Below are positions 4,672 through 21,167 of a DNA stretch of 64,000 nucleotides, piece after piece. Position numbers and translations under genes: made by a program. Numbering within the stretch: position 1 is the first letter of the stretch; each line of letters begins with the position of its first letter. Origin of the DNA: a virus; the IMG/VR virus record IMGVR_UViG_3300047476_001426, positions 62,001-126,000 of that record; one strand, 5' to 3'. The notes under the pieces are model-generated. The model saw only the letters and a list, made by a program, of their open reading frames with translations, had not been told where the DNA came from and made no database searches.

Positions 4672-6585
4672 TTAAACTTTTACAAATTGTTTAGTTAATT
4701 GTTTATTATAATTATGCAAAACCAAGTAATAATTACCGGCTGCGGATGATGTCATATCGATTTGTTTATATGCAATTTTCTCTGATGAATTGGTTGTAAC
4801 AGAACCGATGTTTTTCACCAATTGACCTCTTACATCATAAATTGAACCGTTCATTTCCATGTTTGGATTTGGGAATCTAATTTCAATTTCAAACCATCCA
4901 CTTGTTGGGTTTGGTCTTATTGATGCTGTAATCTCATCAATTGATTGGTCTGTAGGTGGTGCCATTTTATACATGATAACCGCAACACTACTAACCAAAT
5001 CAATATTTAAATGGTCACCCTTCTCATCTGATGCATCCATTAATTGTCTCACATAAATGTTACTTACAATATCATTACCACCAATTGGTGAGAATTTAAG
5101 TTTAAATGGTGTTGATTGACCTATTAAACCATCTTTCATCTGATTGTTCATCCCACCGAATCTAATTGTACCATTAGAAGCATCGTGAGTAACATATTGT
5201 AACCATGGACCACCATTAAAATTTGATATAATCTCCTCAAACTTAACTTTAGTTTTATCGTATTTCATTTCAAACTGTAAACCATAATTGTTATCACCAT
5301 TTGTGTTAACATTGAATGGTACATATAATGGTTGACTTCCTGATGCTGAAGTATTAGGTATTTCAACATCTAATTTACCTTTAAACACCGCCTTAGCAAC
5401 TAATACCCCCGATGAGTTCCATACTCTTGATGAATACGTTCTGTCTACGTCACCTTGAATAAAGTACTTAATGTTTACTGTTTTATTAACTAAACCAACA
5501 CTATCCGTGATAAAATTGGTTGCGGTTAAATGGTTTGGCCAATCATTCCATTGAGTTGAACCTAAAACTAAAGAATCATAAACACTCGCGTGGAAAGTTC
5601 TAATCATTGTTGTGGTATCTATCTTTTTCATACCACTTACGTTCGCGTAAATTAGATATGGGTCACCACCATCCAATTTTCCGTTTTGGTTCATATCACC
5701 AATAAGGTATGCCAAACCATTTTTTAAGTATTGTTGTCCAAATCCTTGGTTAACGTCTGTAATTGTGTATTCATCATATGTCTTTACAGCGTCTGATATT
5801 GTAACCGCGTAATCTCTGAAGACTTCCATACTATCTGCTGGAAATCTAACCAATAATTTATATTTGGTATTTTTATCTACATTGTTTAATGAGTAGTTAC
5901 CAGCGGTGTCACATAAAGAAGATGAAACAAATGTGCCTGTATTATACTTTGTACATATTACTGTTGGTCTTCTACCGGCCAATTTCATTGTTGGAGGTAA
6001 TTCAACAACACCACTAATCACCAAGTTACCCAAAAGTTCAAGGTGCATATCTTGTACATTTAAGATTGCGATGTTATCACCAATTGTAGAACCGTCATAC
6101 TTAAACATTCTTGCCCAGTTAATTTCAACACTGTCAGCATCAAAGTTTGATTCTACGTCATTAATAATAAATTTGTTATGTATTAAAAATGTGTCTTGTG
6201 TTATTTGAGAACCACTTGAAAGTACCAAGAAATTTCTTGCCACAGTATAGTTGGTATCACTTGTGTATGAATACAAACCTGTACCTGAACTGTAACTTGA
6301 ATATTTGTAATTGTTAAAGAATTTTATCGAAAGTGCTGGAGTCATGGTACTCACAGTTGGGTCAACAGTAGTTGATACGTGAGTAAAAAGTTGTTTCCTA
6401 TATTGGAAATCAACTTGGAATGTTCTCACATCAACCGCGGATGCTGGTGTGTATTTAAACACAACATCTAAAGTATCACCTCTTTTGATAGTTTTATACG
6501 CAACGGGGTTACCTATTTCAGGTGTTTGTGAAAACGCCATTGTCGTGACAAATAAAGTAATTAGGGATAAAATTATTTTTTTCAT
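4672..6585 (-). CDS. Secreted cohesin/dockerin-like protein with T9SS sorting domain
   Basis: 637 aa with signal peptide (MKKIILSLITLFVTTMAFSQ). Residues about 25-190 and 430-540 look like cohesin-type beta domains (RTFQVDFQYRKQLFTHVS; LQFEMKYDKTKVKFEEI). A calcium/dockerin-like loop (GDMNQNGKLDGGDPYLIY) lies near 300. The last about 80 residues (IRPNPTSGWFEIEI, YDVRGQLVKNIG, GNYYLVLHNYNKQLTKQFVKV) match a type A T9SS C-terminal sorting domain, which in Bacteroidetes directs cell-surface secretion. A T9SS-tailed protein in a phage implies use of the host secretion system. Its start overlaps the stop of 6582-7079. Confidence 0.8.
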   Translation of the reverse strand: MKKIILSLITLFVTTMAFSQTPEIGNPVAYKTIKRGDTLDVVFKYTPASAVDVRTFQVDFQYRKQLFTHVSTTVDPTVSTMTPALSIKFFNNYKYSSYSSGTGLYSYTSDTNYTVARNFLVLSSGSQITQDTFLIHNKFIINDVESNFDADSVEINWARMFKYDGSTIGDNIAILNVQDMHLELLGNLVISGVVELPPTMKLAGRRPTVICTKYNTGTFVSSSLCDTAGNYSLNNVDKNTKYKLLVRFPADSMEVFRDYAVTISDAVKTYDEYTITDVNQGFGQQYLKNGLAYLIGDMNQNGKLDGGDPYLIYANVSGMKKIDTTTMIRTFHASVYDSLVLGSTQWNDWPNHLTATNFITDSVGLVNKTVNIKYFIQGDVDRTYSSRVWNSSGVLVAKAVFKGKLDVEIPNTSASGSQPLYVPFNVNTNGDNNYGLQFEMKYDKTKVKFEEIISNFNGGPWLQYVTHDASNGTIRFGGMNNQMKDGLIGQSTPFKLKFSPIGGNDIVSNIYVRQLMDASDEKGDHLNIDLVSSVAVIMYKMAPPTDQSIDEITASIRPNPTSGWFEIEIRFPNPNMEMNGSIYDVRGQLVKNIGSVTTNSSEKIAYKQIDMTSSAAGNYYLVLHNYNKQLTKQFVKV

Positions 6586-7469: not shown

Positions 7470-7500
7470 TTGTTTTTTCGAATACTTATTAGTATCTTTG
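7470..7500 (+). promoter_or_regulatory. Bacteroidetes-type promoter of tRNA operon 1
   Basis: TTG at 7470-7472 and TATCTTTG at 7493-7500, separated by 20 nt, match the Bacteroidetes primary-sigma consensus (TTG, 17-23 nt, TAnnTTTG). It points at the leader ORF and tRNA operon 1. Confidence 0.8.
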
Positions 7501-7530
7501 TAAAAGATTTCAAAAATTAAATAAATTTCG

Positions 7531-7620
7531 ATGATACGTTCAACACATACAATGTCGTTTACAATCTGTTCAAAATGGGCGGAGGTAGCTGATATTTGCA
7601 TGTCCCGAGGTGTCTTCTAA
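7531..7620 (+). CDS. Attenuator leader peptide of tRNA operon 1 (29 aa)
   Basis: A 29-codon ORF starts 31 nt after the promoter -7 element. Residues 1-24 use only M, I, R, S, T, H, F, C, K, W, A, E, V and D, exactly the 14 amino acids served by the 14 tRNAs of the downstream operon, including the rare W, H and C. Leu, Asn, Pro, Gln and Tyr are absent. Codons fit the operon anticodons: CGT for Arg-ACG, TCA for Ser-TGA, ATC and ATT for Ile-GAT; the ATA at codon 2 is the exception. Codons 25-29 overlap attenuator segment A. No Shine-Dalgarno sequence is seen. Confidence 0.8.
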   Translation: MIRSTHTMSFTICSKWAEVADICMSRGVF

Positions 7621-7677
7621 GTTGTTTAATTTTAAAAACGATAAAAGAAACCTCGGGAGAAATCTCGAGGTTTTTTT
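7603..7677 (+). promoter_or_regulatory. Transcription attenuator of tRNA operon 1
   Basis: Segment A (TCCCGAGGT, 7603-7611) lies inside the end of the leader ORF and is perfectly complementary to segment B (ACCTCGGGA, 7650-7658). B also pairs through AAACCTCG with segment C (CGAGGTTT, 7666-7673), which runs into seven T: an intrinsic terminator. A:B and B:C are mutually exclusive. A ribosome finishing the leader masks A and favours termination. A ribosome stalled earlier leaves A free and favours antitermination. Confidence 0.8.
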
Positions 7678-7684: not shown

Positions 7685-7754
7685 GGGCCTGATGTCAACG
7701 GCAGACCGTCTGATTTGCAATCAGAACGATTGGGTTCGATTCCCACAGTGTCCA
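7685..7754 (+). tRNA. tRNA-Ala (TGC)
   Basis: Anticodon stem TCTGA/TCAGA with loop TTTGCAA gives anticodon TGC. T-loop TTCGATT. The acceptor GGGCCTG/AGTGTCC has two mismatches but keeps the G3-U70 pair that marks alanine tRNAs. 70 nt, no encoded CCA. First tRNA after the attenuator. The weak acceptor makes this the least regular tRNA of operon 1. Confidence 0.7.
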
Positions 7755-7760
7755 CAAAGA

Positions 7761-7772
7761 TGTTCTTTGACA
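7761..7772 (+). promoter_or_regulatory. boxA-like antitermination element
   Basis: TGTTCTTTGACA resembles rRNA boxA (E. coli TGCTCTTTAACA). It lies between tRNA-Ala and tRNA-Phe and recurs identically before tRNA-Leu at 10682. Confidence 0.55.
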
Positions 7773-7786
7773 TATTGGTTTAATTT

Positions 7787-7860
7787 GGTACCGTAGCTCA
7801 GTTGGTAGAGCACCAGACTGAAAATCTGGGTTGTCACTGGTTCAAATCCAGTCGGTACCA
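7787..7860 (+). tRNA. tRNA-Phe (GAA)
   Basis: Acceptor GGTACCG/CGGTACC is perfect. Anticodon stem CCAGA/TCTGG with loop CTGAAAA. T-arm ACTGG/CCAGT with TTCAAAT. No encoded CCA. Confidence 0.95.
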
Positions 7861-7962
7861 CATAGTGTTGGCTTCAAGTCCCATTAGGGAAGTACACTTA
7901 AATAAAACATACACGGGGAAAGTGTTGACTGCAGAAACAGCGAGTACCAACGAAGGGGTAAT

Positions 7963-8036
7963 GTCTTCGTAGCTCAGTTGGTTAGAGCACCTCACTTTTA
8001 ATGAGGGAGTCACGCGTTCGAGTCGCGTCGGGGACA
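7963..8036 (+). tRNA. tRNA-Lys (TTT)
   Basis: Acceptor GTCTTCG/CGGGGAC with GU pairs. Anticodon stem CCTCA/TGAGG, loop CTTTTAA. T-arm GCG TTCGAGT CGC. Discriminator A. Confidence 0.95.
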
Positions 8037-8040
8037 CAAA

Positions 8041-8165
8041 GGTTGATTGGGGAATGATTATGTCTATAGTTCGAGAGTGGATACTGACTGACATAATCGG
8101 AGTTTGGAGGTATTCACCGTAGTAATGCCAATCGTAAAAGGAGATGTCCACTGAACCATCTTCTC
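8041..8165 (+). ncRNA. Structured inter-tRNA spacer
   Basis: Two long hairpins fill the gap between tRNA-Lys and tRNA-Val. GATTATGTC pairs with GACATAATC, and AAAGGAGA with TCTCCTTT. It is probably a folded processing spacer. An antisense ORF across it is a shadow. Confidence 0.45.
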
Positions 8166-8178
8166 CTTTCCTTGACTT

Positions 8179-8252
8179 AGTTCCTTAGCTCAGTTGGTTA
8201 GAGCATCTGCCTTACATGCAGAGGGTCGTTGGTTCGAATCCGACAGGGACTA
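8179..8252 (+). tRNA. tRNA-Val (TAC)
   Basis: Acceptor AGTTCCT/AGGGACT. Anticodon stem TCTGC/GCAGA with loop CTTACAT. T-arm GTTGG/CCGAC-type with TTCGAAT. Discriminator A. Confidence 0.95.
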
Positions 8253-8254
8253 CA

Positions 8255-8293
8255 ATAAACTAAAAATTGCATCAATAAACAAGGTTAGTTTAT
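8255..8293 (+). ncRNA. Hairpin spacer between tRNA-Val and tRNA-Trp
   Basis: ATAAACTAA pairs perfectly with TTAGTTTAT, closing the short spacer. Confidence 0.4.
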
Positions 8294-8318
8294 CGTGGCA
8301 AAAACAAGTTTAATAAAC

Positions 8319-8389
8319 ACGGGTGTGGTGAAAGGGTATCATACCGGTCTCCAAAACCGTTGTTGGGAGTTCGAATCTCTCCACCCGTG
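8319..8389 (+). tRNA. tRNA-Trp (CCA)
   Basis: Acceptor ACGGGTG/CACCCGT is perfect and the discriminator is G. Anticodon loop CTCCAAA. T-arm GGGAG TTCGAAT CTCTC. Confidence 0.95.
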
Positions 8390-8410
8390 CAAACTTTAAA
8401 AATAAAAACA

Positions 8411-8842
8411 ATGAACAATCAAATAGGAATCGATGCCGCAAAAATAAAATTTGAGGCTGAGAAAATGAAACTAAAAGAAGAAAGGGAACGAAGGATTAAA
8501 GAGTTTTGGGAAAACGGTATACCCAAATTAAATAATCCTGAAGACGTACCAACACTTCCAAGGGTGGATGAAAAAGAATGGAAAGAATACTATGTACCAA
8601 GATTGATTGATGCTGGTGCAATCCCTAAAAAAGATTTAATCCATGGTCAGATTTATATCGGTGAACATAGAAATACAACCATAGCAAGATGGAATCAGGA
8701 AACAAACAAATTCGACCACATGAGATATAAGTTTGGTTGGGCGAAAGATGATTGTAACCATTTTGAAGATGATGATGGATTCGCATTGTTTGTCCCAATT
8801 AGATTAGGAACACAAGAAGAATGGGATGAAAGAATTAAATAA
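8411..8842 (+). CDS. Conserved phage-type protein of unknown function
   Basis: 144 aa from ATG 8411; the frame extends back into tRNA-Trp, so the internal ATG is chosen. A charged helical N-terminus (KIKFEAEKMKLKEERERRIKEFW) precedes a compact domain with HGQIYIGEHRNTTIARWN and FGWAKDDCNHFEDDDGFALFVPI. It is embedded between tRNA-Trp and tRNA-Arg and so co-transcribed with operon 1. Function not recognised. Confidence 0.75.
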   Translation: MNNQIGIDAAKIKFEAEKMKLKEERERRIKEFWENGIPKLNNPEDVPTLPRVDEKEWKEYYVPRLIDAGAIPKKDLIHGQIYIGEHRNTTIARWNQETNKFDHMRYKFGWAKDDCNHFEDDDGFALFVPIRLGTQEEWDERIK

Positions 8843-8847
8843 ATGAT

Positions 8848-8921
8848 GCTCTCGTAGTTCAATGGATTAGAACATTTCACTACGGATGAAAGGGTTGGGA
8901 GTTCGAGTCTCTCCGAGAGTA
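8848..8921 (+). tRNA. tRNA-Arg (ACG)
   Basis: Acceptor GCTCTCG/CGAGAGT. Anticodon stem TTTCA/TGAAA, loop CTACGGA gives ACG, read as ICG if host TadA modifies it. T-loop TTCGAGT. Starts 5 nt after the preceding stop codon. Confidence 0.93.
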
Positions 8922-8926
8922 CAATA

Positions 8927-8998
8927 GGGTCAGTTTGGTCATGGAGGCCGGTTAGTCTGCAAAACTAACGGAGTTGGTTCGATTCCAACATTGACCTC
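8927..8998 (+). tRNA. tRNA-Cys (GCA)
   Basis: Anticodon stem TTAGT/ACTAA with loop CTGCAAA. Acceptor GGGTCAG/TTGACCT with terminal GU pairs. T-arm GTTGG TTCGATT CCAAC. Confidence 0.9.
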
Positions 8999-9053
8999 AA
9001 TATAAGGTCTGAACCTAATAGTGGGGGATTATTAGGTGTGGACCTTATAATAT
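8999..9053 (+). ncRNA. Two-level hairpin spacer
   Basis: The outer stem ATAAGGTC/GACCTTAT encloses an inner stem CCTAATA/TATTAGG-type. It separates tRNA-Cys from tRNA-His. Confidence 0.45.
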
Positions 9054-9129
9054 GGTAGATATAGTTCAGTTGGTTAGAACGTCTGATTGTGGTTCAGAAG
9101 GTCGTCGGTTCGAATCCGATTATTTACCC
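9054..9129 (+). tRNA. tRNA-His (GTG)
   Basis: Acceptor GGTAGAT/ATTTACC. Anticodon stem TCTGA/TCAGA with loop TTGTGGT. Discriminator C, as expected for histidine. T-loop TTCGAAT. Confidence 0.95.
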
Positions 9130-9135
9130 AAACAT

Positions 9136-9209
9136 TGGAATATAGCTCAATTGGTTAGAGCATTCGTCTGATACGCGAAAGGTTATAGGTTCGATTCCTA
9201 TTATTCCAA
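9136..9209 (+). tRNA. tRNA-Ile (GAT)
   Basis: Acceptor TGGAATA/TATTCCA is perfect. Anticodon stem TTCGT/GCGAA with loop CTGATAC. Discriminator A, followed by an encoded CCA (9210-9212). Confidence 0.95.
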
Positions 9210-9217
9210 CCAAACAT

Positions 9218-9291
9218 TGCGGGGTGGACTGGAGAGGTTCCAGCTCAGTCTCATAAGCTGAATGACGTGGGTTCGATTCCCACCCCCGCAA
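9218..9291 (+). tRNA. tRNA-Met (CAT)
   Basis: Acceptor TGCGGGG/CCCCGCA. Anticodon stem TCAGT/GCTGA, loop CTCATAA. The anticodon stem lacks the three GC pairs of initiator tRNA, so elongator Met is more likely; an Ile2 (lysidine) tRNA cannot be excluded. Unusual D-arm CTGG/CCAG. Confidence 0.85.
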
Positions 9292-9349
9292 CTTTTTCAT
9301 TGAACATTTTGAAATATGGAATTTCATGTTTATATTTTAATTGTTCGTT

Positions 9350-9361
9350 TGTTCTTTGAAA
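9350..9361 (+). promoter_or_regulatory. boxA-like element
   Basis: TGTTCTTTGAAA, one or two changes from the copies at 7761 and 10682. It lies in the 169-nt gap between tRNA-Met and tRNA-Thr. The rest of the gap has a GGTTGGA/TCCAACC stem near 9415-9453 and no gene. Confidence 0.4.
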
Positions 9362-9460
9362 TAAAAATATGGATATAACTAGGGTCGAGCCAGATTTTGC
9401 CACGGTTATGTCAAGGGTTGGAAGGACCAGAGCTGGCCGTGACTACTCCAACCCACTATT

Positions 9461-9534
9461 GCCTCCTTAGCTCAGTTGGCCAGAGCGCCTCACTTGTAAT
9501 GAGGATGTCGTTGGTTCGAATCCGACAGGAGGCT
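9461..9534 (+). tRNA. tRNA-Thr (TGT)
   Basis: Acceptor GCCTCCT/AGGAGGC is perfect. Anticodon stem CCTCA/TGAGG with loop CTTGTAA. T-loop TTCGAAT. Confidence 0.95.
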
Positions 9535-9540
9535 CTGCAG

Positions 9541-9630
9541 GGTTTTCGGTGTAAAGGGTGTCAAAACCCACCTGAGCAAAACCTAACATATGTCCACTAT
9601 GTGTTAGGGTAATGTGGATAAAACCGAAAT
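9541..9630 (+). ncRNA. Branched structured spacer
   Basis: Closed by TTTCGGT/ACCGAAA. It contains a second strong hairpin CCTAACATA/TATGTGTTAGG. Lies between tRNA-Thr and tRNA-Asp. Confidence 0.45.
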
Positions 9631-9631
9631 T

Positions 9632-9703
9632 GGTCTCATAGTTAAACGGCTATAATGCAGCCCTGTCACGGCTGAGTTCGGGGTTCGATTCCCCGTGGGA
9701 CCG
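9632..9703 (+). tRNA. tRNA-Asp (GTC)
   Basis: Acceptor GGTCTCA/TGGGACC. Anticodon stem CAGCC/GGCTG with loop CTGTCAC. Discriminator G as expected for aspartate. T-arm CGGGG TTCGATT CCCCG. Confidence 0.95.
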
Positions 9704-9994
9704 CAATGAGTAAGAGATACTCAGGAAGATTGGCTACATTCTGTAAAAAAGTAGTGGTGGTAAAAAAATCCTCGACCTTAATGAGGTATCGATTTGGATA
9801 AAACGGTAGCAAGACTCTGCACCGCCGACGTATAGAGTTGACAGGTTTTTATGTGGTAAGACACTAATGAAAAAGACCCAATGAAGGAGGACGCTTTTAA
9901 GCAATATGTTCAGAGAGCGTTGGGGGATATGGTTCTCGAAACAGTGAGAGAAACCCGTTAAAATCTACTTATTGTAATCTCAGATAAGGAAATT
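9704..9994 (+). ncRNA. 291-nt untranslated segment, probably structured RNA
   Basis: No convincing ORF or canonical tRNA. Several short stems are visible (GAGATACTC-type, CGCTTTTAAGC, GGTTCTCG/GAGAGAAACC). It lies within tRNA operon 1 between tRNA-Asp and tRNA-Ser. It may be a small RNA or remnants of degraded tRNAs. No known RNA family recognised. Confidence 0.35.
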
Positions 9995-10080
9995 GGAGAG
10001 TTGGCAGAGCTGGTTGAACGCGGCGGTCTTGAAAACCGTTTTACTGAAAGGTAACGGGGGTTCGAATCCCTCACTCTCCG
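9995..10080 (+). tRNA. tRNA-Ser (TGA)
   Basis: Acceptor GGAGAGT/ACTCTCC and discriminator G. Anticodon loop CTTGAAA. Long variable arm as expected for serine tRNA. T-loop TTCGAAT. Confidence 0.95.
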
Positions 10081-10088
10081 CAAATTAT

Positions 10089-10160
10089 GGCCCTTTCGTC
10101 TATCGGTTAGGACAGGTCCCTTTCACGGACCAGAGACGGGTTCGATTCCCGTAGGGGCTA
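10089..10160 (+). tRNA. tRNA-Glu (TTC)
   Basis: Acceptor GGCCCTT/AGGGGCT. Anticodon stem GGTCC/GGACC with loop CTTTCAC. Discriminator A plus encoded CCA (10161-10163). Last tRNA of operon 1. Confidence 0.95.
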
Positions 10161-10179
10161 CCAAACAAAAAAAACCAAT

Positions 10180-10422
10180 ATGTTAGAGAAAATTTTAGAA
10201 CAATATGAGAGTGAGGAAATCTTAATTGCCGATGGATTTGATAATGCGGTTATAGGTATTGATGAATCCACAATGAGATTAATTTATTCCGTTGAGAAGT
10301 GTATAAACATCCTAATGGAACAAGGAATGGATATGACAGAAGCGGTTGAATACTTTGATTTCAACGTCTCAGGTTCATATGTTGGTGAGAAGACTCCAAT
10401 ATGGTGTGATGATTTATTTTAA
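10180..10422 (+). CDS. Small conserved phage protein of unknown function
   Basis: 80 aa, acidic: ILIADGFDNAVIGID, RLIYSVEKCINILMEQGMDMTEAVEYFDFNVSGSYVGEKTPIW. The pattern DGF(D)xAxIG...VEKC...A-EYF-FN--G-YVGE-TPI is familiar from small proteins of many tailed phages whose role is unknown. It follows tRNA-Glu by 20 nt and ends tRNA operon 1. Confidence 0.8.
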   Translation: MLEKILEQYESEEILIADGFDNAVIGIDESTMRLIYSVEKCINILMEQGMDMTEAVEYFDFNVSGSYVGEKTPIWCDDLF

Positions 10423-10440
10423 AAAAAAATTTAAAATTAT

Positions 10441-10470
10441 TTGTAAATAAAAAAACTTTTCGTATCTTTG
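10441..10470 (+). promoter_or_regulatory. Bacteroidetes-type promoter of tRNA operon 2
   Basis: TTG at 10441-10443 and TATCTTTG at 10463-10470, spaced 19 nt. Same architecture as the promoter at 7470. Confidence 0.8.
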
Positions 10471-10487
10471 TGATAGTTATTTAAGAA

Positions 10488-10592
10488 ATGATGAACTTGG
10501 TATACATACAACAACCGTTGAACAATCCACTTAGTGGTAATGGGAGAGGTATATATTTATGTGACCCAAGTTCGGAGTTAGTCAAATTATAA
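10488..10592 (+). CDS. Attenuator leader peptide of tRNA operon 2 (34 aa)
   Basis: A 34-codon ORF begins 18 nt after the -7 element. Residues 1-24 contain only M, N, L, V, Y, I, Q, P, S, G and R. All ten amino acids served by the canonical operon 2 tRNAs are present, and Val is the only extra. A, F, K, W, C, H, T, D and E are absent from this section. Codons are AGA for Arg-TCT, AGT for Ser-GCT, ATA for Ile-TAT, CAA for Gln-TTG and TTA for Leu-TAA, again matching the operon anticodons. Codons 27-30 overlap attenuator segment A. Confidence 0.8.
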   Translation: MMNLVYIQQPLNNPLSGNGRGIYLCDPSSELVKL

Positions 10593-10650
10593 GGATAAGA
10601 TAACCTACTATAGATGACCCGAACTTAAATAAAAAAGTTCGGGTTTTTTG
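10568..10650 (+). promoter_or_regulatory. Transcription attenuator of tRNA operon 2
   Basis: Segment A (AAGTTCGG, 10568-10575) lies within the leader ORF. Segment B (CCCGAACTT, 10618-10626) can pair with A or with segment C (AAGTTCGGG, 10635-10643), which runs into a T6 tract. A and C are the same sequence, so A:B and B:C exclude each other. Layout is the same as at 7603-7677, with different stem sequences. Confidence 0.8.
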
Positions 10651-10681
10651 TTTTTAGAGTTTTTTGTTTTTATATTTGAAG

Positions 10682-10693
10682 TGTTCTTTGACA
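10682..10693 (+). promoter_or_regulatory. boxA-like antitermination element
   Basis: TGTTCTTTGACA, identical to 7761-7772 and followed by the same ATATTGGTTTAA. It stands between the attenuator and tRNA-Leu. Confidence 0.55.
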
Positions 10694-10710
10694 TATTGGT
10701 TTAAGTAGTT

Positions 10711-10795
10711 GCCGAGGTGATGGAATGGTAGACATGAGGGACTTAAAATCCCTTGGACAGTAATGTTCGTGTGGGTTCGACTCCCATCCTCGGTA
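10711..10795 (+). tRNA. tRNA-Leu (TAA)
   Basis: Acceptor GCCGAGG/CCTCGGT. Anticodon stem AGGGA/TCCCT with loop CTTAAAA. Long variable arm. Discriminator A. First tRNA of operon 2. Confidence 0.95.
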
Positions 10796-10797
10796 CA

Positions 10798-11008
10798 AAA
10801 GAAACTTCCTTACAGAAGGTGATAATGCTTCACTGAAAGGACTACTGACTTCCAAGTGGGTCGCAACCACAATCGGAAGGTACGACACGGCTCAGTAGAC
10901 TCTGTAACGGACCCTGCTCTATGGTGCACACATAACAGGTGATGGGGAACAAACCATCGGTAAAATCTAAACCCACGGTGAGCGTGGAAGGAATGTTTCT
11001 TTTTTTAA
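10798..11008 (+). ncRNA. Large structured spacer RNA closed by a long stem
   Basis: AAGAAACTTCCTT near the start pairs with AAGGAATGTTTCTT near the end, followed by a T run. Inner stems include AACAGGTGATGGGG/CCATCGG-type pairs. It fills the tRNA-Leu to tRNA-Arg gap. No ORF. Antisense ORFs here are shadows. Confidence 0.5.
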
Positions 11009-11009
11009 T

Positions 11010-11083
11010 GTCTCCGTAGCTCAGCTGGATAGAGCAACAGCCTTCTAAGCTGTGGGTCATTGGTTCGAATCCAATCGGGGATA
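11010..11083 (+). tRNA. tRNA-Arg (TCT)
   Basis: Acceptor GTCTCCG/CGGGGAT. Anticodon stem ACAGC/GCTGT with loop CTTCTAA. T-arm ATTGG TTCGAAT CCAAT. Confidence 0.95.
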
Positions 11084-11084
11084 C

Positions 11085-11230
11085 TAAGATAGTGGTCACT
11101 CTCACAATGAAAGTCGACAAAGTAGTTGTGAGGTTCATAGTGTTCAGCACCCTCGGCCAGTGCACTGATAAAACTCAGAAGAAGCCGTTAAGATTGGAGC
11201 GAGACGGGTACTCCATCACTATCTTTTTTT
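11085..11230 (+). ncRNA. Structured spacer RNA closed by a long stem
   Basis: AAGATAGTG at the start pairs with CACTATCTT at the end, followed by T5. Internal stems include TCTCACAAT/GTTGTGAG. It separates tRNA-Arg and tRNA-Pro. Confidence 0.5.
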
Positions 11231-11305
11231 CGGGATGTAGCGTAGTCCGGTTATCGCGCATGGTTTGGGACCATGAGGTCGCAGGTTCGAATCCTGCTAT
11301 CCCGA
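11231..11305 (+). tRNA. tRNA-Pro (TGG)
   Basis: Acceptor CGGGATG/TATCCCG. Anticodon stem CATGG/CCATG with loop TTTGGGA. T-arm GCAGG TTCGAAT CCTGC. Confidence 0.95.
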
Positions 11306-11356
11306 CAAAGTCCGAGAGTAATTAACTCGGTACCTGAGAGGTTCGAAACTCTCGAT

Positions 11357-11448
11357 TGATTATGGTGTAATGGCGCACAGCAGAACGGAGTACGGGCATC
11401 GGCCTCGAAAGGGGACGCAGGATTAAGGTTCGAATCCTTATTAATCAG
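11357..11448 (+). tRNA. Irregular tRNA-like gene with enlarged central region
   Basis: Acceptor TGATTA(T)/TTAATCA, a short D-arm (GTG...CAC) and a good T-arm (TAAGG TTCGAAT CCTTA) are present. The 44 nt between D-arm and T-arm is too long for a class I tRNA. A CTCGAAA heptamer could be a CGA anticodon loop, but its stem pairs poorly. Probably an interrupted or decaying tRNA; amino acid not assigned. Confidence 0.45.
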
Positions 11449-11652
11449 CAAGCCGTCTTTTTTCATACTCGCACCGATGAGGGGGACTGTTGAGACGTTA
11501 AAGTAACAGTGTAAAGCAATCGGGGGTTTATCCAAGTTACCCACAAACTGGGGTCGTTTTCCTTACCGAAGGAGTTTCCCGACCAATAAACTGAAACTCA
11601 AACGATAGAAAAAAGTAGGGACACATGGGGAAGCTTTAACCCGTCCCGAAAT
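11449..11652 (+). other. 204-nt gap with no recognised gene
   Basis: No ORF on the plus strand and no canonical tRNA. Short complementary stretches are present, but no closing stem like those of the other spacers was found. Confidence 0.4.
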
Positions 11653-11750
11653 AGTCAGGTGAGTTGGTACTCACGGAGGGTCGTTAAATGGAAAGATACC
11701 ACATCGACGAGGTGGTAAATGCCGAACAGGTTCGAGTCCTGTCCTGACTA
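11653..11750 (+). tRNA. Irregular tRNA-like gene (acceptor AGTCAGG), copy 1
   Basis: Perfect acceptor AGTCAGG/CCTGACT, D-arm AGT TGGT ACT and T-arm ACAGG TTCGAGT CCTGT. A 6-bp stem TACCAC/GTGGTA holds an oversized loop ATCGACGAG where the anticodon arm should be. It is preceded by about 23 extra nt. 98 nt in all. Anticodon ambiguous. Confidence 0.45.
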
Positions 11751-11824
11751 CTAAGTAGAGAGAACCGTGAGTTTGCGGATGGAAACAACCATAAAACGAG
11801 CATACGTCATACTCTACTTAACAT

Positions 11825-11917
11825 AGTCAGGTTTGGTACAAGGTCGGTTCGAGTCCGATGGAAGGTCATGGATGTCGGGTAGCTCCCTGTAGAGAGGTTC
11901 GATTCCTCTCCTGACTA
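11825..11917 (+). tRNA. Irregular tRNA-like gene (acceptor AGTCAGG), copy 2
   Basis: Same acceptor AGTCAGG/CCTGACT as 11653-11750 and a T-arm AGAGG TTCGATT CCTCT. A second complete T-arm-like hairpin (TCGG TTCGAGT CCGA) lies inside, so it looks like two fused tRNA 3' halves. No clear anticodon arm. Confidence 0.4.
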
Positions 11918-11995
11918 CGATACGGTGTTGACCTGTCCGCGACCGAAATGTATACAAAACAGTGGAGGGTGACAAATAGGGAGAGACCTGTACAT

Positions 11996-12136
11996 GATTA
12001 AGTGGCGAAATTGGTTTACGCGCTGGTCAGTACCCAAAAGAGTGTTGAATGGGGAAAACTGGTGGACATACTACAGACACGAGTAGTAGGAGATTATGTC
12101 TTTAAATCCGTACAGGTTCGAATCCTGTCTTAATCT
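11996..12136 (+). tRNA. Expanded Leu-like tRNA gene (141 nt)
   Basis: Acceptor GATTAAG/CTTAATC, D-arm GCGAAATTGGTTTACGC typical of leucine tRNAs, and T-arm ACAGG TTCGAAT CCTGT. The anticodon stem CTGGT/ACTGG holds a 30-nt loop instead of 7 nt. The variable-arm stem GACATA/TATGTC holds a further insert. The 127 nt after it carry one more isolated T-arm-like hairpin (GTGG TTCGATT CCAC at 12142). Confidence 0.5.
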
Positions 12137-12263
12137 CGAATGTGGTTCGATTCCACTCGTTAACTGAGGTTTTGGAAAGTAGTCCAATGGAGGTACACAC
12201 TCCACTTAGAAATAAGGTAGAATGATGGAGAACAGTTTGGAGGTGTGGGAAGACACACAAAAT

Positions 12264-12335
12264 TCCTCGATAGCTCAGCGGTAGAGCAAACGGCTGTTAA
12301 CCGTTAGGTCCCAAGTTCGAATCTTGGTCGGGGAG
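12264..12335 (+). tRNA. tRNA-Asn (GTT)
   Basis: Acceptor TCCTCGA/TCGGGGA and discriminator G. Anticodon stem AACGG/CCGTT with loop CTGTTAA. Short D-loop. Intact, unlike the interrupted Asn gene at 19267. Confidence 0.95.
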
Positions 12336-12411
12336 CAAAAAAATCGTTGATGGAAACATCGAAGGTGTACAATACTAGTAACACCGTAGGTTTGGCGATG
12401 TCCTACAATAG

Positions 12412-12492
12412 GCCTTGGTGGTGGAATGGTAGACACGCTAGTCTTAGGAACTAGTGGCGAAAGTCGTGTCGGTTCGAGTCCGACCTGAGGTA
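12412..12492 (+). tRNA. tRNA-Leu (TAG)
   Basis: Acceptor GCCTTGG/CTGAGGT. Anticodon stem CTAGT/ACTAG with loop CTTAGGA. Variable arm. T-arm GTCGG TTCGAGT CCGAC. Confidence 0.95.
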
Positions 12493-12497
12493 CAAAT

Positions 12498-12601
12498 TCA
12501 TTCTTAGTGTTATGAGGTAAAACACTTTGACTCTCACATCGCCTGGTTAGTACTGACCCGAATGTGAGACGAGTAAGTTGGTTCGAATCCAACAGAATGG
12601 A
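12498..12601 (+). tRNA. tRNA-like gene with an insertion in the anticodon loop
   Basis: Acceptor TCATTCT/AGAATGG, D-arm GTGTT/AACAC, T-arm GTTGG TTCGAAT CCAAC. The anticodon stem CTCAC/GTGAG (extended to 8 bp by neighbouring bases) closes a loop about 19 nt too long, which itself contains GGT...ACC. Amino acid not assigned. Confidence 0.5.
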
Positions 12602-12663
12602 CAACCCGTCGAAAGCTCATGTTGGTCCGAGTGAGATGGAAACGCGGATATCGGACCCGTTAT

Positions 12664-12745
12664 TGGAAGGTGGGTGAGTGGTTAAAACCGGCAGACTGTA
12701 AATCTGCTCCCATTGGGTACGGGGGTTCGAATCCCTCCCTTCCAA
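12664..12745 (+). tRNA. tRNA-Tyr (GTA)
   Basis: Acceptor TGGAAGG/CCTTCCA. Anticodon stem GCAGA/TCTGC with loop CTGTAAA. Class II variable arm. Discriminator A. Confidence 0.95.
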
Positions 12746-12758
12746 CAAAAATATCATT

Positions 12759-13310
12759 ATGAAAAAAAATAAAATAATTTCAGAGATGTTATCAAACATC
12801 ACACCTGAAATGAAAGAAAAATGGAAACAAGAGAGAATTGAACGTAAAAACAAATTAACACCCGAATATCAACTCGGATATTATGTTGGTTTGGAAATTG
12901 TTCACAGATATCTACCAACTCTTTCTACTGATATGATACAATCTCGCACCGTGATTGAAGTTTCTGAAGAAGATACTTTAGAAAATGAAAGATTGGATAC
13001 CGAATGGTATACAACAACAAAACACGGTGGAGAATGGAATGGTGTTGATGAAAACGGCAATAAAGAGAAATGGGATTTATACCATCAACACAATAAAATG
13101 TTGGGAAGGAAATACCTACCAAATCCATTGGAGTGTTACATGAGTTTGTTAAATGTTCAAAACATGGATGAATTTAAAAAAGGTTTAAGGTTCGCATTGT
13201 GGGATTGTGATATGTGTTCATACAATATTGAACCTGAAAACATAAAAATTTACGATGATGAACAAGCCATGTTTACTATTATCGAATTTCAATTAGATTC
13301 AGTGGTGTAG
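12759..13310 (+). CDS. Protein of unknown function whose stop lies inside tRNA-Ile
   Basis: 183 aa, starts 13 nt after tRNA-Tyr. A helical charged N-terminus (NITPEMKEKWKQERIERKNKLTPEYQLGYYVGLEIVHRYL) is followed by an acidic mixed domain (KHGGEWNGVDENGNKEKWDLYHQHNKMLGRKYLPNPLECYMSLLN). It ends with TAG at 13308-13310, 10 nt into tRNA-Ile(TAT). The TAG stop is rare here and a CTA suppressor tRNA is encoded; readthrough would add only four residues. Function unknown. Confidence 0.7.
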   Translation: MKKNKIISEMLSNITPEMKEKWKQERIERKNKLTPEYQLGYYVGLEIVHRYLPTLSTDMIQSRTVIEVSEEDTLENERLDTEWYTTTKHGGEWNGVDENGNKEKWDLYHQHNKMLGRKYLPNPLECYMSLLNVQNMDEFKKGLRFALWDCDMCSYNIEPENIKIYDDEQAMFTIIEFQLDSVV

Positions 13311-13374
13311 CTCAATTGGTGAGAGCAGGACTCTTATACAGTCAAGGTTATGGGTTCAAATCCCGTCATCACTA
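13301..13374 (+). tRNA. tRNA-Ile (TAT)
   Basis: Acceptor AGTGGTG/CATCACT. Anticodon loop CTTATAC gives TAT, decoding AUA directly. Discriminator A plus encoded CCA (13375-13377). Most bacteria read AUA with a lysidine-modified CAT tRNA, so this removes dependence on that modification. The 5' end overlaps the preceding CDS. Confidence 0.9.
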
Positions 13375-13428
13375 CCAATTATCGGTTAAATAACCGATAA
13401 AATAAATTATCGTCGATTTGAACGATAT

Positions 13429-13502
13429 GGTCCCTTAGCTCAGTTGGTTAGAGCAACTGACTCATAATCAGTAGGCCCACGGTTCAAGCCCGTGAGGGAC
13501 CA
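13429..13502 (+). tRNA. tRNA-Met (CAT)
   Basis: Acceptor GGTCCCT/AGGGACC is perfect. Anticodon stem ACTGA/TCAGT with loop CTCATAA. T-arm CACGG TTCAAGC CCGTG. Elongator type. An Ile2 identity after lysidine modification cannot be ruled out. Confidence 0.93.
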
Positions 13503-13527
13503 CAGAGATATTTATATATAAAAAACT

Positions 13528-13980
13528 ATGGGAATAGAATTAAAAAAGAAAAAACAACTTATCGAAAGATTAAATAAAAGGTTGTTATCGGAAGCCGAAA
13601 TGGAATGTCCAAAACCAACTCAAGATTTGGAATTAAACACCAAAAACAGAGATAAATCAATAAAGGCAGATTATATTAAATATGGTCCACTTAATATTGA
13701 TGAACCGGGAGATTATTGGGAAATGGTTGCATCCGATTGGGATACAACTGTTGAGGCAGCAAAAAAATCACTATGTGGTAATTGTGTTGCTTTTGATATT
13801 TCACCAAGAATGGATGAATGTATGCCGGGTTCTGTTTCTGATGACAGCGGTAGATTAGGTTACTGTTGGATGCATCATTTTAAATGTCATTCAGCAAGAA
13901 CATGTAAAACATGGGCTAAAGGTGGACCTATTACCGAAGACACGGTTTCATACGAATGGCAAGAAAAAAATAAAGAATAA
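13528..13980 (+). CDS. Cysteine-rich conserved phage protein of unknown function
   Basis: 150 aa. The C-terminal 90 residues (YWEMVASDWDTTVEAAKKSLCGNCVAF, ISPRMDECMPG, GRLGYCWMHHFKCHSARTCKTWAKGGPI) carry six Cys and adjacent His. This pattern is known from small proteins of T4-like cyanophages and suggests a metal site. A GATATTTATA motif lies 20 nt upstream. No function is established. Confidence 0.75.
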   Translation: MGIELKKKKQLIERLNKRLLSEAEMECPKPTQDLELNTKNRDKSIKADYIKYGPLNIDEPGDYWEMVASDWDTTVEAAKKSLCGNCVAFDISPRMDECMPGSVSDDSGRLGYCWMHHFKCHSARTCKTWAKGGPITEDTVSYEWQEKNKE

Positions 13981-14043
13981 ATGTAGTCGTACCCTTAACT
14001 CCAAAACTCACAACTGAGTCTCTGTTATGGGAAGGCTACTCCC

Positions 14044-14116
14044 GCGGAAATAGCTCAGTTGGTAGAGCATCACCTTGCCAAGGTGAGGGTCGCGAGTTCG
14101 AGTCTCGTTTTCTGCT
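14044..14116 (+). tRNA. tRNA-Gly (GCC)
   Basis: Acceptor GCGGAAA/TTTCTGC. Anticodon stem TCACC/GGTGA with loop TTGCCAA. T-arm GCGAG TTCGAGT CTCGT. Discriminator T. Confidence 0.95.
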
Positions 14117-14117
14117 C

Positions 14118-14181
14118 TAAGTAAACCTTAAAAAGGGCCCTTCCGTTGGTACGACAACGGCTTGTTGAGCCCGGGTTTACT
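14118..14181 (+). ncRNA. Hairpin spacer between the two glycine tRNAs
   Basis: AGTAAACC pairs with GGTTTACT and encloses a GGGCCC/GGGCTC-rich inner structure, followed by T5. Confidence 0.4.
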
Positions 14182-14185
14182 TTTT

Positions 14186-14257
14186 GCGAATATCGTATAA
14201 TGGTCATTACTTCAGACTTCCAATCTGAAGATGTCAGTTCGATTCTGACTATTCGCT
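14186..14257 (+). tRNA. tRNA-Gly (TCC)
   Basis: Acceptor GCGAATA/TATTCGC is perfect. Anticodon stem TCAGA/TCTGA with loop CTTCCAA. T-arm GTCAG TTCGATT CTGAC. Confidence 0.95.
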
Positions 14258-14310
14258 CAATCATTATAGTGGTCACTAAATCGGGTTAGTGAAAATCTAT
14301 TTGATATTAT

Positions 14311-14381
14311 TGTCCTGTGGTGTAACGGCAGCACATCTGGTTTTGGTCCAGAGAATTGAGGTTCGAATCCTTGCGGGACAA
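14311..14381 (+). tRNA. tRNA-Gln (TTG)
   Basis: Acceptor TGTCCTG/CGGGACA. Anticodon stem TCTGG/CCAGA with loop TTTTGGT. T-arm TGAGG TTCGAAT CCTTG. Its D-arm (GTGTAACGGCAGCAC) closely resembles that of the CTA suppressor tRNA at 16386. Confidence 0.95.
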
Positions 14382-14439
14382 CAAAATTTTTAAATTATGA
14401 AAAAAGAAAGAGACTTCTATTAGGTAACACTAATAGAAT

Positions 14440-14709
14440 ATGTCAAAACACAGAAACAGAGCTAAGCTCAAAAACGCAGAATGTGGTAGGGATTACCACC
14501 TAATTTCTTTAAACGAATGGTATCCCCTTTATTGGGATGAGGGGTACAACTTCTATCCACGATGGAGAAGAGGTTACAAAAATCCCAACAAGACAATTCC
14601 AATCTTTAAAGTACGTGAGTACAGAACTTGGAAGTACAACAGAAAAAACCAATATGTTGAGAGGAAAGTTACCCAAGTTGGTGAAGGGGACGGTTTGCTA
14701 AACCGTTAG
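14440..14709 (+). CDS. Small basic protein ending inside tRNA-Ser
   Basis: 89 aa, rich in Arg, Lys, Tyr and Trp (HRNRAKLKN, EWYPLYWDEGYNFYPRWRRGYKNPNK), suggesting nucleic-acid contact. A hairpin CTATTAG/CTAATAG sits just before its ATG. The last 15 codons and the TAG stop (14707-14709) are inside tRNA-Ser(GCT), so one RNA segment must serve as both mRNA and tRNA. Function unknown. Confidence 0.6.
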   Translation: MSKHRNRAKLKNAECGRDYHLISLNEWYPLYWDEGYNFYPRWRRGYKNPNKTIPIFKVREYRTWKYNRKNQYVERKVTQVGEGDGLLNR

Positions 14710-14750
14710 GTCGAGTAATCGGCGCGAGGGTTCGAGCCCCTCACTTTCCG
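14663..14750 (+). tRNA. tRNA-Ser (GCT)
   Basis: Acceptor GGAAAGT/ACTTTCC, discriminator G, anticodon stem ACGGT/ACCGT with loop TTGCTAA, long variable arm. Its 5' half overlaps the end of the 14440-14709 ORF by 47 nt. Confidence 0.93.
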
Positions 14751-14781
14751 CAAAATACTTATAAGTAGAATAATATGTAAT

Positions 14782-15243
14782 ATGACAAAATTTAGAACAT
14801 TGTACGGAACACCCATAACTGACGTTATTGGTTACATCAAAGATTATTTGGTTGATAAAACTGATGTTGAGATATTAATTGGTTCGGATTCACAATCATT
14901 TAGTAATTCAAAAACAGTTTACGGGGTGGTTATTGCTCTTTACACAACAGGTAAAGGTGCACACGTACTATGTACTAAAGATATCACACCATTTGAAAAA
15001 GACACATCAAGTAGATTAATGACCGAAGTTTGGAAAGCTGTTGAAGTTGCCGAACATTTGAGAAATAATGGTTTACCAAAAGCCACATGGATTGATATAG
15101 ATTTAAATCCCGACCCAAGATATAAATCAAACAAAGTTTTGAGACAAGCAGTTGGTTTGGTTGAAGGTATGGGATACAAGGTAAGATACAAACACGCAGG
15201 TGCTATGGTGACTTACAGTGCAAACCATTTGGTAAGAATTTAA
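14782..15243 (+). CDS. RNase H-like fold protein (YkuK/DUF458 type)
   Basis: 153 aa, about the full length of the family. VEILIGSDSQSFSNSKTVYGVVIALY is the first strand with an Asp, as in DUF458/YkuK-type RNase H-like proteins. The later acidic patch WIDIDLNPDPRYKS and the C-terminal GYKVRYKHAGAMVTYSANHLV complete the fold. Biochemical function of the family is not established. It starts 31 nt after tRNA-Ser in the RNA island. Confidence 0.75.
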   Translation: MTKFRTLYGTPITDVIGYIKDYLVDKTDVEILIGSDSQSFSNSKTVYGVVIALYTTGKGAHVLCTKDITPFEKDTSSRLMTEVWKAVEVAEHLRNNGLPKATWIDIDLNPDPRYKSNKVLRQAVGLVEGMGYKVRYKHAGAMVTYSANHLVRI

Positions 15244-15260
15244 AAAAAAGATAAGAGGGC

Positions 15261-15291
15261 TTGTTTTTTTAAAAAAGTCCTTTTATCTTTG
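15261..15291 (+). promoter_or_regulatory. Bacteroidetes-type promoter before the PTH2 gene
   Basis: TTG at 15261-15263, 20 nt, TATCTTTG at 15284-15291. The PTH2 start codon lies only 20 nt downstream, with an ATATTTATA motif in the leader. Confidence 0.75.
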
Positions 15292-15310
15292 TAATGTAAT
15301 ATTTATAGTC

Positions 15311-15652
15311 ATGAGAAAAAACTAGATTAACAGACTTGTAGTCGTAACCCGTAAAGACTTAAAACCCGGGTACCAAATTGCACAATCGGGACATGCAATC
15401 TCTCAGTTCATTTTAGAACACCCCGAATTGTCGAAACGATGGAACAACAGTTATCTGATTTCATTATCCATCGATTCAGAAGAAAAATTACAACAATTAC
15501 TTTTTAGGTTAGAAGATTCAGGAATACCTGTATCTCATTTCATTGAACCCGATATCGGGAATCAATTAACATCTATTTGCTTTCTCGAAACCGAGGAAAC
15601 AAAAAGATTCACATCATCATTGCCTTTATCCTTAAAGGAATATAATAAATAA
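15311..15652 (+). CDS. Peptidyl-tRNA hydrolase type 2 with in-frame amber codon 5
   Basis: The reading frame starts ATG AGA AAA AAC TAG ATT AAC, then runs open to TAA. After the TAG the protein starts NRLVVVTRKDLKPGYQIAQS, the expected first strand and catalytic-site region of PTH2, followed by GHAISQFILEHPE and HFIEPDIGNQLTSICFLE, which match the PTH2 fold. About 112 aa, normal PTH2 length. No other ATG lies before the conserved core, and the host-type promoter fits this start. Expression is predicted to need readthrough of TAG by the tRNA-Sup(CTA) at 16386. PTH2 recycles peptidyl-tRNAs released from stalled ribosomes. Confidence 0.7.
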
Positions 15653-15672
15653 ACAATTTAATCTTAAAAATT

Positions 15673-15927
15673 ATGAAGTAGATTAACAAAAAATGTGAAA
15701 TTATTTTTCACTTCAACAAGAAACACTTGGAAAATCCGACGATTCCAATGTGGGTTGTGAAATGTCGGGGCGACACTTATTATGTTCATCATGTTGATGT
15801 CTCACCGGGTGTGGGATTCTCAACAAAAGAAACTCCCGATAACCCTCATACCAAAGGGAGTATAAAATTCAAAGCAAATTTGGAAATTGAGGAAAACAAT
15901 AACATAATAACAGCTAAAATTTTTTAA
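15673..15927 (+). CDS. Small protein with in-frame amber codon 3
   Basis: The frame is ATG AAG TAG ATT AAC AAA AAA, then open to TAA at 15927, about 84 codons. After the TAG the product reads INKKCEIIFHFNKKHLENPT, then MWVVKCRGDTYYVHHVDVSPGVGFSTKETPDNPHTKGSIKFKANLEIEE. A shorter start at an internal ATG would remove the first beta strand. The TAGATTAAC context is identical to the PTH2 gene immediately upstream. Function unknown. Confidence 0.65.
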
Positions 15928-15929
15928 AA

Positions 15930-16268
15930 ATGAAAAATACAAAACACAACCCAACAATGATGATTAAATCATCTTTCTCGAACAAGATTCATAATCTTTT
16001 AGGTATCAAACACAAACCATATTCAAAAGAGTGGTTTGAAGGTATGAAACAAAGAAGAGAATTGACTAATGAAGAAAAGTCTAAACTTTTTGATGAAATT
16101 ATGAAGGTGTATGTTGAAACATCCGACGAATTGGTAAACTATCGTAAAGATAGGAGATTAAAAAAATGGGTCAACAAAAAACGTTTAGAAAGAGGATATG
16201 TCCCAAAGAAAAAAACAAAAAAAGAAGATTATGAAAAAAATCTTCAAAATGATTTGGAGATATCTTAA
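15930..16268 (+). CDS. Small basic protein of unknown function
   Basis: 112 aa, strongly basic (SNKIHNLLGIKHKPYSKEWFEGMKQRRELTNEEKSKLFDEIMKVY; tail KKWVNKKRLERGYVPKKKTKKEDYEKN). Starts 2 nt after the stop of the amber-containing gene, so probably co-translated with it. It could bind nucleic acid; no family recognised. Confidence 0.65.
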   Translation: MKNTKHNPTMMIKSSFSNKIHNLLGIKHKPYSKEWFEGMKQRRELTNEEKSKLFDEIMKVYVETSDELVNYRKDRRLKKWVNKKRLERGYVPKKKTKKEDYEKNLQNDLEIS

Positions 16269-16385
16269 TTAATATCTACTTTTGAATTGTGATTGAAAAG
16301 TGACAGTGACAAATAGACCAAGTGGGGCACACGTAAAATTGTATCAGTCGAAAGTCGAGGTGATAGACCACCATCAATCACAAAC

Positions 16386-16457
16386 GGTCTCGTGGTGTAG
16401 CGGTAACATTACGGTCTCTAAAACCGATAGTCACGGGTTCAAATCCCGTCGGGACCA
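16386..16457 (+). tRNA. Amber suppressor tRNA (anticodon CTA)
   Basis: Acceptor GGTCTCG/CGGGACC, T-arm ACGGG TTCAAAT CCCGT, anticodon loop CTCTAAA with conserved T33, giving anticodon CTA that pairs with UAG. The D-arm (GTGTAGCGGTAACAT) is close to the phage tRNA-Gln D-arm, suggesting glutamine charging, but other identities are possible. The structure is fully canonical, so it should be functional. It lies downstream of two genes with early in-frame TAG codons. Confidence 0.9.
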
Positions 16458-16497
16458 CAACAAAAAAAAATATTTTTAAAAAAAATTACAAAAATAC

Positions 16498-20770: not shown

Positions 20771-21167
20771 GGGGGTGTATGGAATCGATTGGCATTGATA
20801 TCCTAAATGGGCACGTAGTCGGACTTCATCTACGACTTAAATCTACGGTGGAAAAATTCAAACGGCAACGTTTACAACAACATGGAAGTAGCAGGTCTTC
20901 TTGCAACTTCTAAAGTTGCTGCCTAATCGGCAGTAACTAACGGGTCGGTGGACACATAACCTTGGAACAGAAGTCCTTACAGTGTAATACCACTTAGAGT
21001 GTTAGGAGAATGGCCTGACTGTCTCTTTAAATTATAGTCAGGAACAGGTTTGTTGTTTTTCTGTGTATGAAATCAAATATTTGTTGGTTGTGAATAACCA
21101 AATAAACGTGTAGTCCATTTATGGTATGATGAGCAAGACGCGGGTTCGAAACCCGCCACCTCCACCA
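20771..21167 (+). ncRNA. ssrA: tmRNA (SsrA) with long tag reading frame
   Basis: The 5' end GGGGGUG pairs with CACCUCC at the 3' end, followed by ACCA, and the T-arm is GCGGG TTCGAAA CCCGC. Near the 5' end UGGAAUCGAUUGGC resembles the conserved tmRNA segment UGGAUUCGACGGG. The tag frame probably resumes at GGC (20864), after AAAC as in Bacteroidetes tmRNAs, and stops at TAA 20924-20926 in the loop of stem GTTGCTGCC/GGCAGTAAC. The predicted tag is GNVYNNMEVAGLLATSKVAA, 20 residues ending VAA, unlike the short host-type tags ending ALAA. tmRNA rescues stalled ribosomes and marks products for proteolysis. Confidence 0.85.

Follow-up and report, generated by a model that had tools for sequence, protein, structure and literature searches.

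Two phage tRNA operons preceded by leader peptides that list their own tRNAs: a probable case of ribosome-mediated attenuation

In a stretch of 64,000 nucleotides from a phage—bases 62001-126000 of the viral record IMGVR_UViG_3300047476_001426, which record is 136,485 bases long; the stretch is hereafter called the window—an array of transfer RNA (tRNA) genes is divided into two operons, each preceded by a short leader open reading frame (ORF) composed mostly of codons that the tRNAs of that operon read. The split of the codon table between the two leaders mirrors the split of the tRNAs between the two operons, and we consider it highly probable that the leaders control the operons through ribosome-mediated transcription attenuation, in which a tRNA shortage would stall a ribosome at the corresponding codons and so open the operon encoding the scarce tRNA. 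This interpretation draws on the anatomy of the leaders, on the match of their codons to the tRNAs, on the covariation of that match across phages, and on the co-variation of the two RNA segments, A and B, that pair within each leader region. Translation of the leader, stalling, termination, and polarity we infer, the polarity and the feedback from the geometry together with the trp and his model (PMC1183508).

Results

Anatomy of the two leaders

The genes 5' of the tRNA region lie on the minus strand, and the tRNA region itself, at 7685-16458, on the plus strand, with 26 tRNAs recognized by ARAGORN and one tRNA-Ala recognized by Rfam. The elements of the first operon are as follows:

7470..7500, plus strand: promoter 1, Bacteroidota type (TTG 7470-7472, spacer of 20 bases, TATCTTTG 7493-7500)
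7531..7620, plus strand: leader ORF 1, 29 codons, MIRSTHTMSFTICSKWAEVADICMSRGVF; putative sensing codons 1-24
7603..7611, plus strand: segment A of leader 1 (its codons 25-27), predicted antiterminator 5' arm
7648..7658, plus strand: segment B of leader 1 (shared arm), from sequence and pairing
7663..7677, plus strand: segment C and T run, predicted intrinsic terminator 1 (C 7663-7673, T run 7671-7677)
7685..10163, plus strand: tRNA operon 1, Ala Phe Lys Val Trp Arg-ACG Cys His Ile-GAT Met Thr Asp Ser-TGA Glu
7761..7778, plus strand: boxA-like element TGTTCTTTGACATATTGG of operon 1, from sequence

The sequence-only reading of this DNA had placed a promoter, a 29-codon leader ORF, segments A, B, and C, and a T run ahead of operon 1, all of which were found; the promoter fits what we take to be the TAnnTTTG consensus. 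A second leader, absent from that reading, precedes the first tRNA-Leu of operon 2 (10711), where the same parts recur:

10441..10470, plus strand: promoter 2 (TTG 10441-10443, TATCTTTG 10463-10470)
10488..10592, plus strand: leader ORF 2, MMNLVYIQQPLNNPLSGNGRGIYLCDPSSELVKL; putative sensing codons 1-26
10568..10575, plus strand: segment A of leader 2 (8 base pairs with B, -11.9 kcal/mol)
10617..10626, plus strand: segment B of leader 2, from sequence and pairing
10635..10649, plus strand: segment C and T run, predicted terminator 2 (C 10635-10643)
10682..10699, plus strand: boxA-like element of operon 2, from sequence, identical to the 18-mer of operon 1
10711..14751, plus strand: tRNA operon 2, Leu-TAA Arg-TCT Pro Asn Leu-TAG Tyr Ile-TAT Met Gly Gly Gln Ser-GCT

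Both terminators are thus followed by the 18-mer TGTTCTTTGACATATTGG, one copy per operon, which we read as a putative boxA. Operon 1 comprises 14 tRNAs, the default threshold of ARAGORN giving 13; its Ala-TGC gene (7685-7754) is a weak Rfam match (31.8 bits, the gathering score being 29) that ARAGORN finds at a relaxed threshold. This tRNA-Ala lies just 3' of terminator 1 and 5' of the boxA-like element, and its acceptor stem contains a mismatch and a G3:U pair, which pair is the classical alanine identity element.

Match between leader codons and operon tRNAs

The sequence-only reading had further claimed that residues 1-24 of leader 1 use exactly the 14 amino acids of the operon 1 tRNAs. At the level of amino acids the claim holds, with no residue besides and with the set complete by codon 21, the sole off-set residue of the leader being Gly27, which sits within segment A; at the level of codons it fails at one position, since the ATA at position 2 fits the Ile-TAT of operon 2. 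Accordingly, 23 of the 24 codons 5' of segment A belong to operon 1 codon families and all 14 tRNAs are covered, versus 4/24 codons and 2/11 families when leader 1 is compared with operon 2. The serine codons of leader 1 are exclusively TCN and its arginine codons exclusively CGN, fitting Ser-TGA and Arg-ACG in operon 1 rather than Ser-GCT and Arg-TCT in operon 2, which choice of codons makes for a sharper, operon-specific claim. The repertoire of leader 2 is complementary and corresponds to the tRNAs that make up the array's second half: over 24 codons, 23 belong to its own operon, with 11/11 families covered, versus 3/24 and 2/14 against operon 1; its AGA (Arg), AGT (Ser), and ATA (Ile) codons fit Arg-TCT, Ser-GCT, and Ile-TAT.

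That such a match might be a coincidence of amino acid composition, set beside an ordinary terminator for upstream transcription, is suggested by the commonness of short ORFs and by the choice of residues 1-24 after inspection of the sequence. When, following the sequence-only reading, 2 million random 24-codon leaders were drawn with the phage's codon usage, leader 1 was equaled by 3 and leader 2 by 3 of them at the amino acid level, and by 1 and 0, respectively, at the level of codon families; that is, about one in a million per leader. Among the 14377 real 24-codon windows in the ORFs of the phage, none was as good as either leader. The match, moreover, is repeated in the second leader and in all but one of the 25 leader groups described below (p < 0.05). 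These tests together with the permutations described below rule out chance composition, and we give coincidence practically no credence.

Leaders in other phages

We assembled two collections of leaders. The first consisted of viral contigs gathered with the RNase H-like protein adjoining the array (14782-15243, PF04308); the second, independent of it, started from T runs with the boxA-like 17-mer GTTCTTTGACATATTGG after them, which search is enriched for terminators ahead of boxA and blind to codons. A script relying on structure only then selected a terminator, an ATG-initiated ORF ending shortly 5' of it, a stretch within that ORF complementary to segment B, and a tRNA no more than 350 bases away. 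The collections yielded 70 and 47 distinct leader peptides, respectively, from both related and unrelated viral contigs; the 113 usable leaders formed 32 groups of dissimilar peptides, in 25 of which the operon was not cut by a contig end. The device recurs, its codons matched differently, in dozens of other phages. As the sequence-only reading had anticipated, a leader ORF ahead of tRNA arrays in related phages was found with a codon set that tracks tRNA content, and this was so in unrelated phages as well.

No leader was detected in 20 of 129 arrays, many of which begin at the edge of a contig or locus; inspection of two loci that the script had scored as leaderless (L072, L198) revealed a leader below thresholds. 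Under stricter thresholds, the same architecture away from tRNAs gave 5 candidates in 8.5 megabases. A tblastn search for cultured phages with the device, made with three leader peptides against 50,697 phage records, gave no match; the RNase H-like protein had its closest relatives in those records at about 28-35% identity, and no leader was found at two huge-phage loci (L076, L077) taken from the list of such relatives. A bacterial origin was considered: the T run plus 17-mer was absent from all 396 genomes sampled from the phylum of the metagenome-assembled genome G001 (labeled Chitinophagaceae) and present in 2 of 299 sampled from its family, which makes the combination, for the exact 17-mer, look phage-side; two loci inspected from that scan (L294, L295) were starts of ribosomal RNA operons lacking a leader. 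Because relatives of the RNase H-like protein occur in contigs binned as Chitinophagaceae or Chitinophagales, and because the phage encodes a 637-residue protein (4672-6585) with a Por/type IX secretion sorting tail (PF18962), the host is likely a member of the Bacteroidota.

Across the 25 groups, leaders covered 94% of the operon tRNA families, versus 71.6 +- 2.7% with the operons permuted (0/20000), and 83% of the leader codons belonged to the operon, versus 62.9 +- 2.1% after permutation (0/20000); the groups, which may in part share a deep common ancestry, are not strictly independent, so that these counts are to be taken as strong rather than exact. For single leaders—tested against the phage's own codon usage, or against that of the window where a locus had too few genes—p was below 0.05 in 24/25 groups and below 0.001 in 17/25.

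We had to consider whether the leader might be a general sensor of translation speed, a run of varied codons through which any slowdown, whether by starvation or by shut-off, would open the operon, the tRNA match being incidental. Leaders ahead of single arrays would be indistinguishable from such a sensor, for they contain nearly all the amino acids: that of L081 has 35/35 codons in the operon and 23/23 families covered, with all 20 amino acids within 35 codons, that of L117 45/45 codons and 23/23 families, and that of L065 likewise 23/23 families. Where the array is split, in contrast, the repertoire is split as well, down to TCN versus AGY for serine and CGN versus AGR for arginine. Small operons, too, are paired with leaders of few different residues: in L230 the operon Phe-His-Pro-Gln follows a leader ending in MHQPQQPQHPQRM. 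Further examples of the match are another operon of L230, Ala-Asp-Glu-Leu-Val-Trp, which follows MKKLLDILSLVLEAMLVVDALLWADEDYYT; the operon Cys-Asp-Glu-His-Met-Arg-Ser-Thr of L222, which follows the leader MKNLFHTTTSSSTSTSSCDEDTRA; and L231, where 33/34 codons and 16/16 families agree. Furthermore, moves of tRNAs coincide with moves of codons. In L035, operon 2 holds the Asp and Glu tRNAs, and the E and D codons are in leader 2, with none in the sensing part of leader 1; in L028, L030, and L037 the Val and Thr tRNAs are in operon 2, and V and T are present in the second leaders; and in the L049/L067 lineage the Thr and Leu-TAA tRNAs occupy a separate, unled upstream unit, and both leaders are devoid of Thr codons 5' of segment A. 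A general speed sensor is, in view of these splits and moves, improbable. As an observation apart, a small Leu-Thr-Gly tRNA unit with no visible leader lies 5' of the attenuated operon in L046, L049, L053, and L067.

Pairing of segments A, B, and C

In leader 1 the A:B pairing comprises 9 base pairs (duplex -16.3 kcal/mol; p = 0.005 against shuffles) and is balanced by B:C (-16.4 kcal/mol). Among 70 leaders, A:B was better than in dinucleotide shuffles, at p <= 0.05, in 50; and when segment B was swapped among the 32 groups, the A:B score dropped from 13.1 with the leader's own B to 4.84 +- 0.76 (0/20000). Complementarity, energies, and the preference for the own B agree with what the sequence-only reading had asserted, that A:B and B:C exclude each other and that A lies within the leader ORF. 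Relative to the stop codon, the median position of A in the 70 leaders is -22 to -15, and B starts at +27; A spans -15 to -7 in leader 1 and -22 to -15 in leader 2. Between close leaders there were 138 synonymous and 122 nonsynonymous single-base codon differences; about 1:3 is expected in the absence of selection, and the excess of the synonymous share suggests that the ORF is translated and that the leader is under selection at the peptide level.

The ORF may, alternatively, be translated under another logic: the polarity might be the reverse, or the ribosome or the peptide might help an antitermination complex to load onto boxA, active translation thereby promoting transcription of the tRNAs. 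The boxA-like 18-mer 3' of both terminators would suit this scheme, as would the position of A, which often coincides with the upstream boundary of a terminating ribosome's footprint; the codon-tRNA match and the A-B complementarity, which it leaves unexplained, render it more doubtful still than the speed sensor.

A number of observations count against attenuation by stalled ribosomes. In leader 2 the B:C hairpin (-15.9 kcal/mol) is of distinctly greater stability than A:B, and a longer RNA of leader 1 likewise folds in favor of B:C; the switch must therefore rest on co-transcriptional order, B being transcribed before C, which, as in classical attenuators, gives A:B the chance to form first. 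The footprint of a ribosome terminating at the stop codon, as conventionally defined, includes the segment A of many leaders only partly. In 20/70 leaders the A:B pairing had a shuffle p > 0.05, and the pipeline itself demanded an own A:B score >= 9, although the margin between own and swapped scores exceeds that demand. Many second leaders carry K, V, C, or ATA, and several first leaders Q, with no matching tRNA in the operon. The phages L005-L009 have lost most operon 2 tRNAs, yet the leader retains N, Q, and P. Every phage found with the device, moreover, is uncultured.

The L005 lineage is the nearest case that we found, having looked for one, of an operon whose leader lacks the expected residues or complementarity, and there it is the old codons that were kept. 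In L005 (7800-8520) operon 1 and its leader are lost, tRNA remnants remain, and leader 2 still lists the lost tRNAs; the lineage is a snapshot of decay.

Other features of the region

Between tRNA-Pro and tRNA-Asn (11355-12150) there are several tRNA-like pieces, consisting of T-arm and acceptor ends, whose anticodon arms are odd or missing and whose ARAGORN scores are low; a freshwater-1 RNA (RF02979) lies at 10903-10965. The phage also encodes a transfer-messenger RNA (tmRNA; 20771-21167, RF00023, 98.4 bits), an additional translation-rescue function.

Two genes near the array, a PTH2-like peptidyl-tRNA hydrolase (15311-15650) and an 81-residue protein (15673-15926), begin with ATG and 1-3 codons, followed by an in-frame TAG and then Ile, usually Ile-Asn. 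This early amber codon is kept in all four phages in which it was found (that of the window, L010, L011, and L014), each of which has a tRNA with the anticodon CTA (16386-16458 in the window). The two genes perhaps have a start that depends on a suppressor tRNA, which might constitute a second codon-sensing control.

Discussion

The original proposal of an attenuator responding to the operon's own tRNAs is supported by these results, with termination at 7677, stalling, and feedback as its predicted consequences. The features by which an attenuator may be recognized in sequence are present: a short ORF between promoter and terminator ahead of the controlled genes, mutually exclusive A:B and B:C pairings with a T run after B:C, and regulatory codons that fit the product of the operon. 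The device, to judge from these features, would work like a classical attenuator.

Under attenuation, a ribosome would trail the RNA polymerase through a leader ORF made of codons mostly read by the downstream tRNAs. If all the listed tRNAs were available, the ribosome would reach the stop codon and cover A, B:C would form, and transcription would end before the tRNAs; if any listed tRNA were scarce or uncharged, the ribosome would stall upstream, A would be free, and A:B would form first and block B:C, in which circumstance the array would be transcribed. With no ribosome at all A:B would also form, so that a failure of translation would likewise open the operon. The boxA-like element may sustain elongation or protect the long untranslated transcript. 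The whole would amount to a multi-input OR gate, in which the lack of any one product tRNA turns on its own operon.

A wider proposal—that a widespread class of Bacteroidota phages uses repertoire-matched leader attenuators as a tRNA-depletion alarm, in which the loss of a tRNA to the host or to a defense nuclease would fire only the operon that replaces it, the peptide being an evolving list of tRNAs—seems to us evenly balanced between true and false. The purpose of phage tRNAs has been disputed for fifty years, and the control of the arrays is little known; leader codons that list the operon's own tRNAs imply a codon-by-codon sensing of shortage, answered by replacement tRNAs. The list would reveal which tRNAs the phage treats as limiting, the sequence signature serves to find further operons of this kind, and the tRNA-depletion hypothesis becomes directly testable.

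Comparison with known systems

Attenuation is known from synthetase operons, pheST among them. Phage tRNA arrays have been explained as an escape from tRNA-cutting defenses (PMC10264068), and the phages of that work also have tRNA arrays, the main text being silent on leaders, attenuators, operons, and promoters. The T-box riboswitch likewise senses the state of a tRNA through a choice between terminator and antiterminator, but binds one tRNA directly and independently of translation. Rfam at gathering scores gave only tRNA, tmRNA, and freshwater-1, and no T-box or other known family at the leaders. The attenuators of aminoacyl-tRNA synthetases, such as leuS and trpS in actinobacteria (PMC1262725), resemble the phage device in that the translation machinery is controlled through codon-specific stalling; each of them, however, senses one amino acid and has the synthetase as its product, whereas the product of the phage device is the tRNA itself.

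A leader-peptide attenuator before a tRNA operon, of a phage or otherwise, was not found in the open-access literature (PMC), which result, being confined to that literature, is not proof of absence. The closest likeness is to the ribosome-mediated attenuators of the amino acid operons trp, his, leu, thr, ilvGMEDA, and pheA (PMC1183508), with which the phage leaders share a short ORF with regulatory codons and an exclusive choice of antiterminator or intrinsic terminator before the first gene. Attenuators of the trp and his type sense 1-3 amino acids, for which they mostly use a single repeated codon, and the genes under their control encode enzymes, whereas the phage leaders list 4 to 20 amino acids, mostly with one or few codons each, would control phage tRNAs, and manage with three RNA segments. 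Leader-peptide attenuation would thereby be extended from 1-3 amino acids to all twenty; and to our knowledge the input list of 4 to 20 amino acids, the tRNAs as the controlled genes, the occurrence in phages, and a peptide whose match to its operon evolves are all new.
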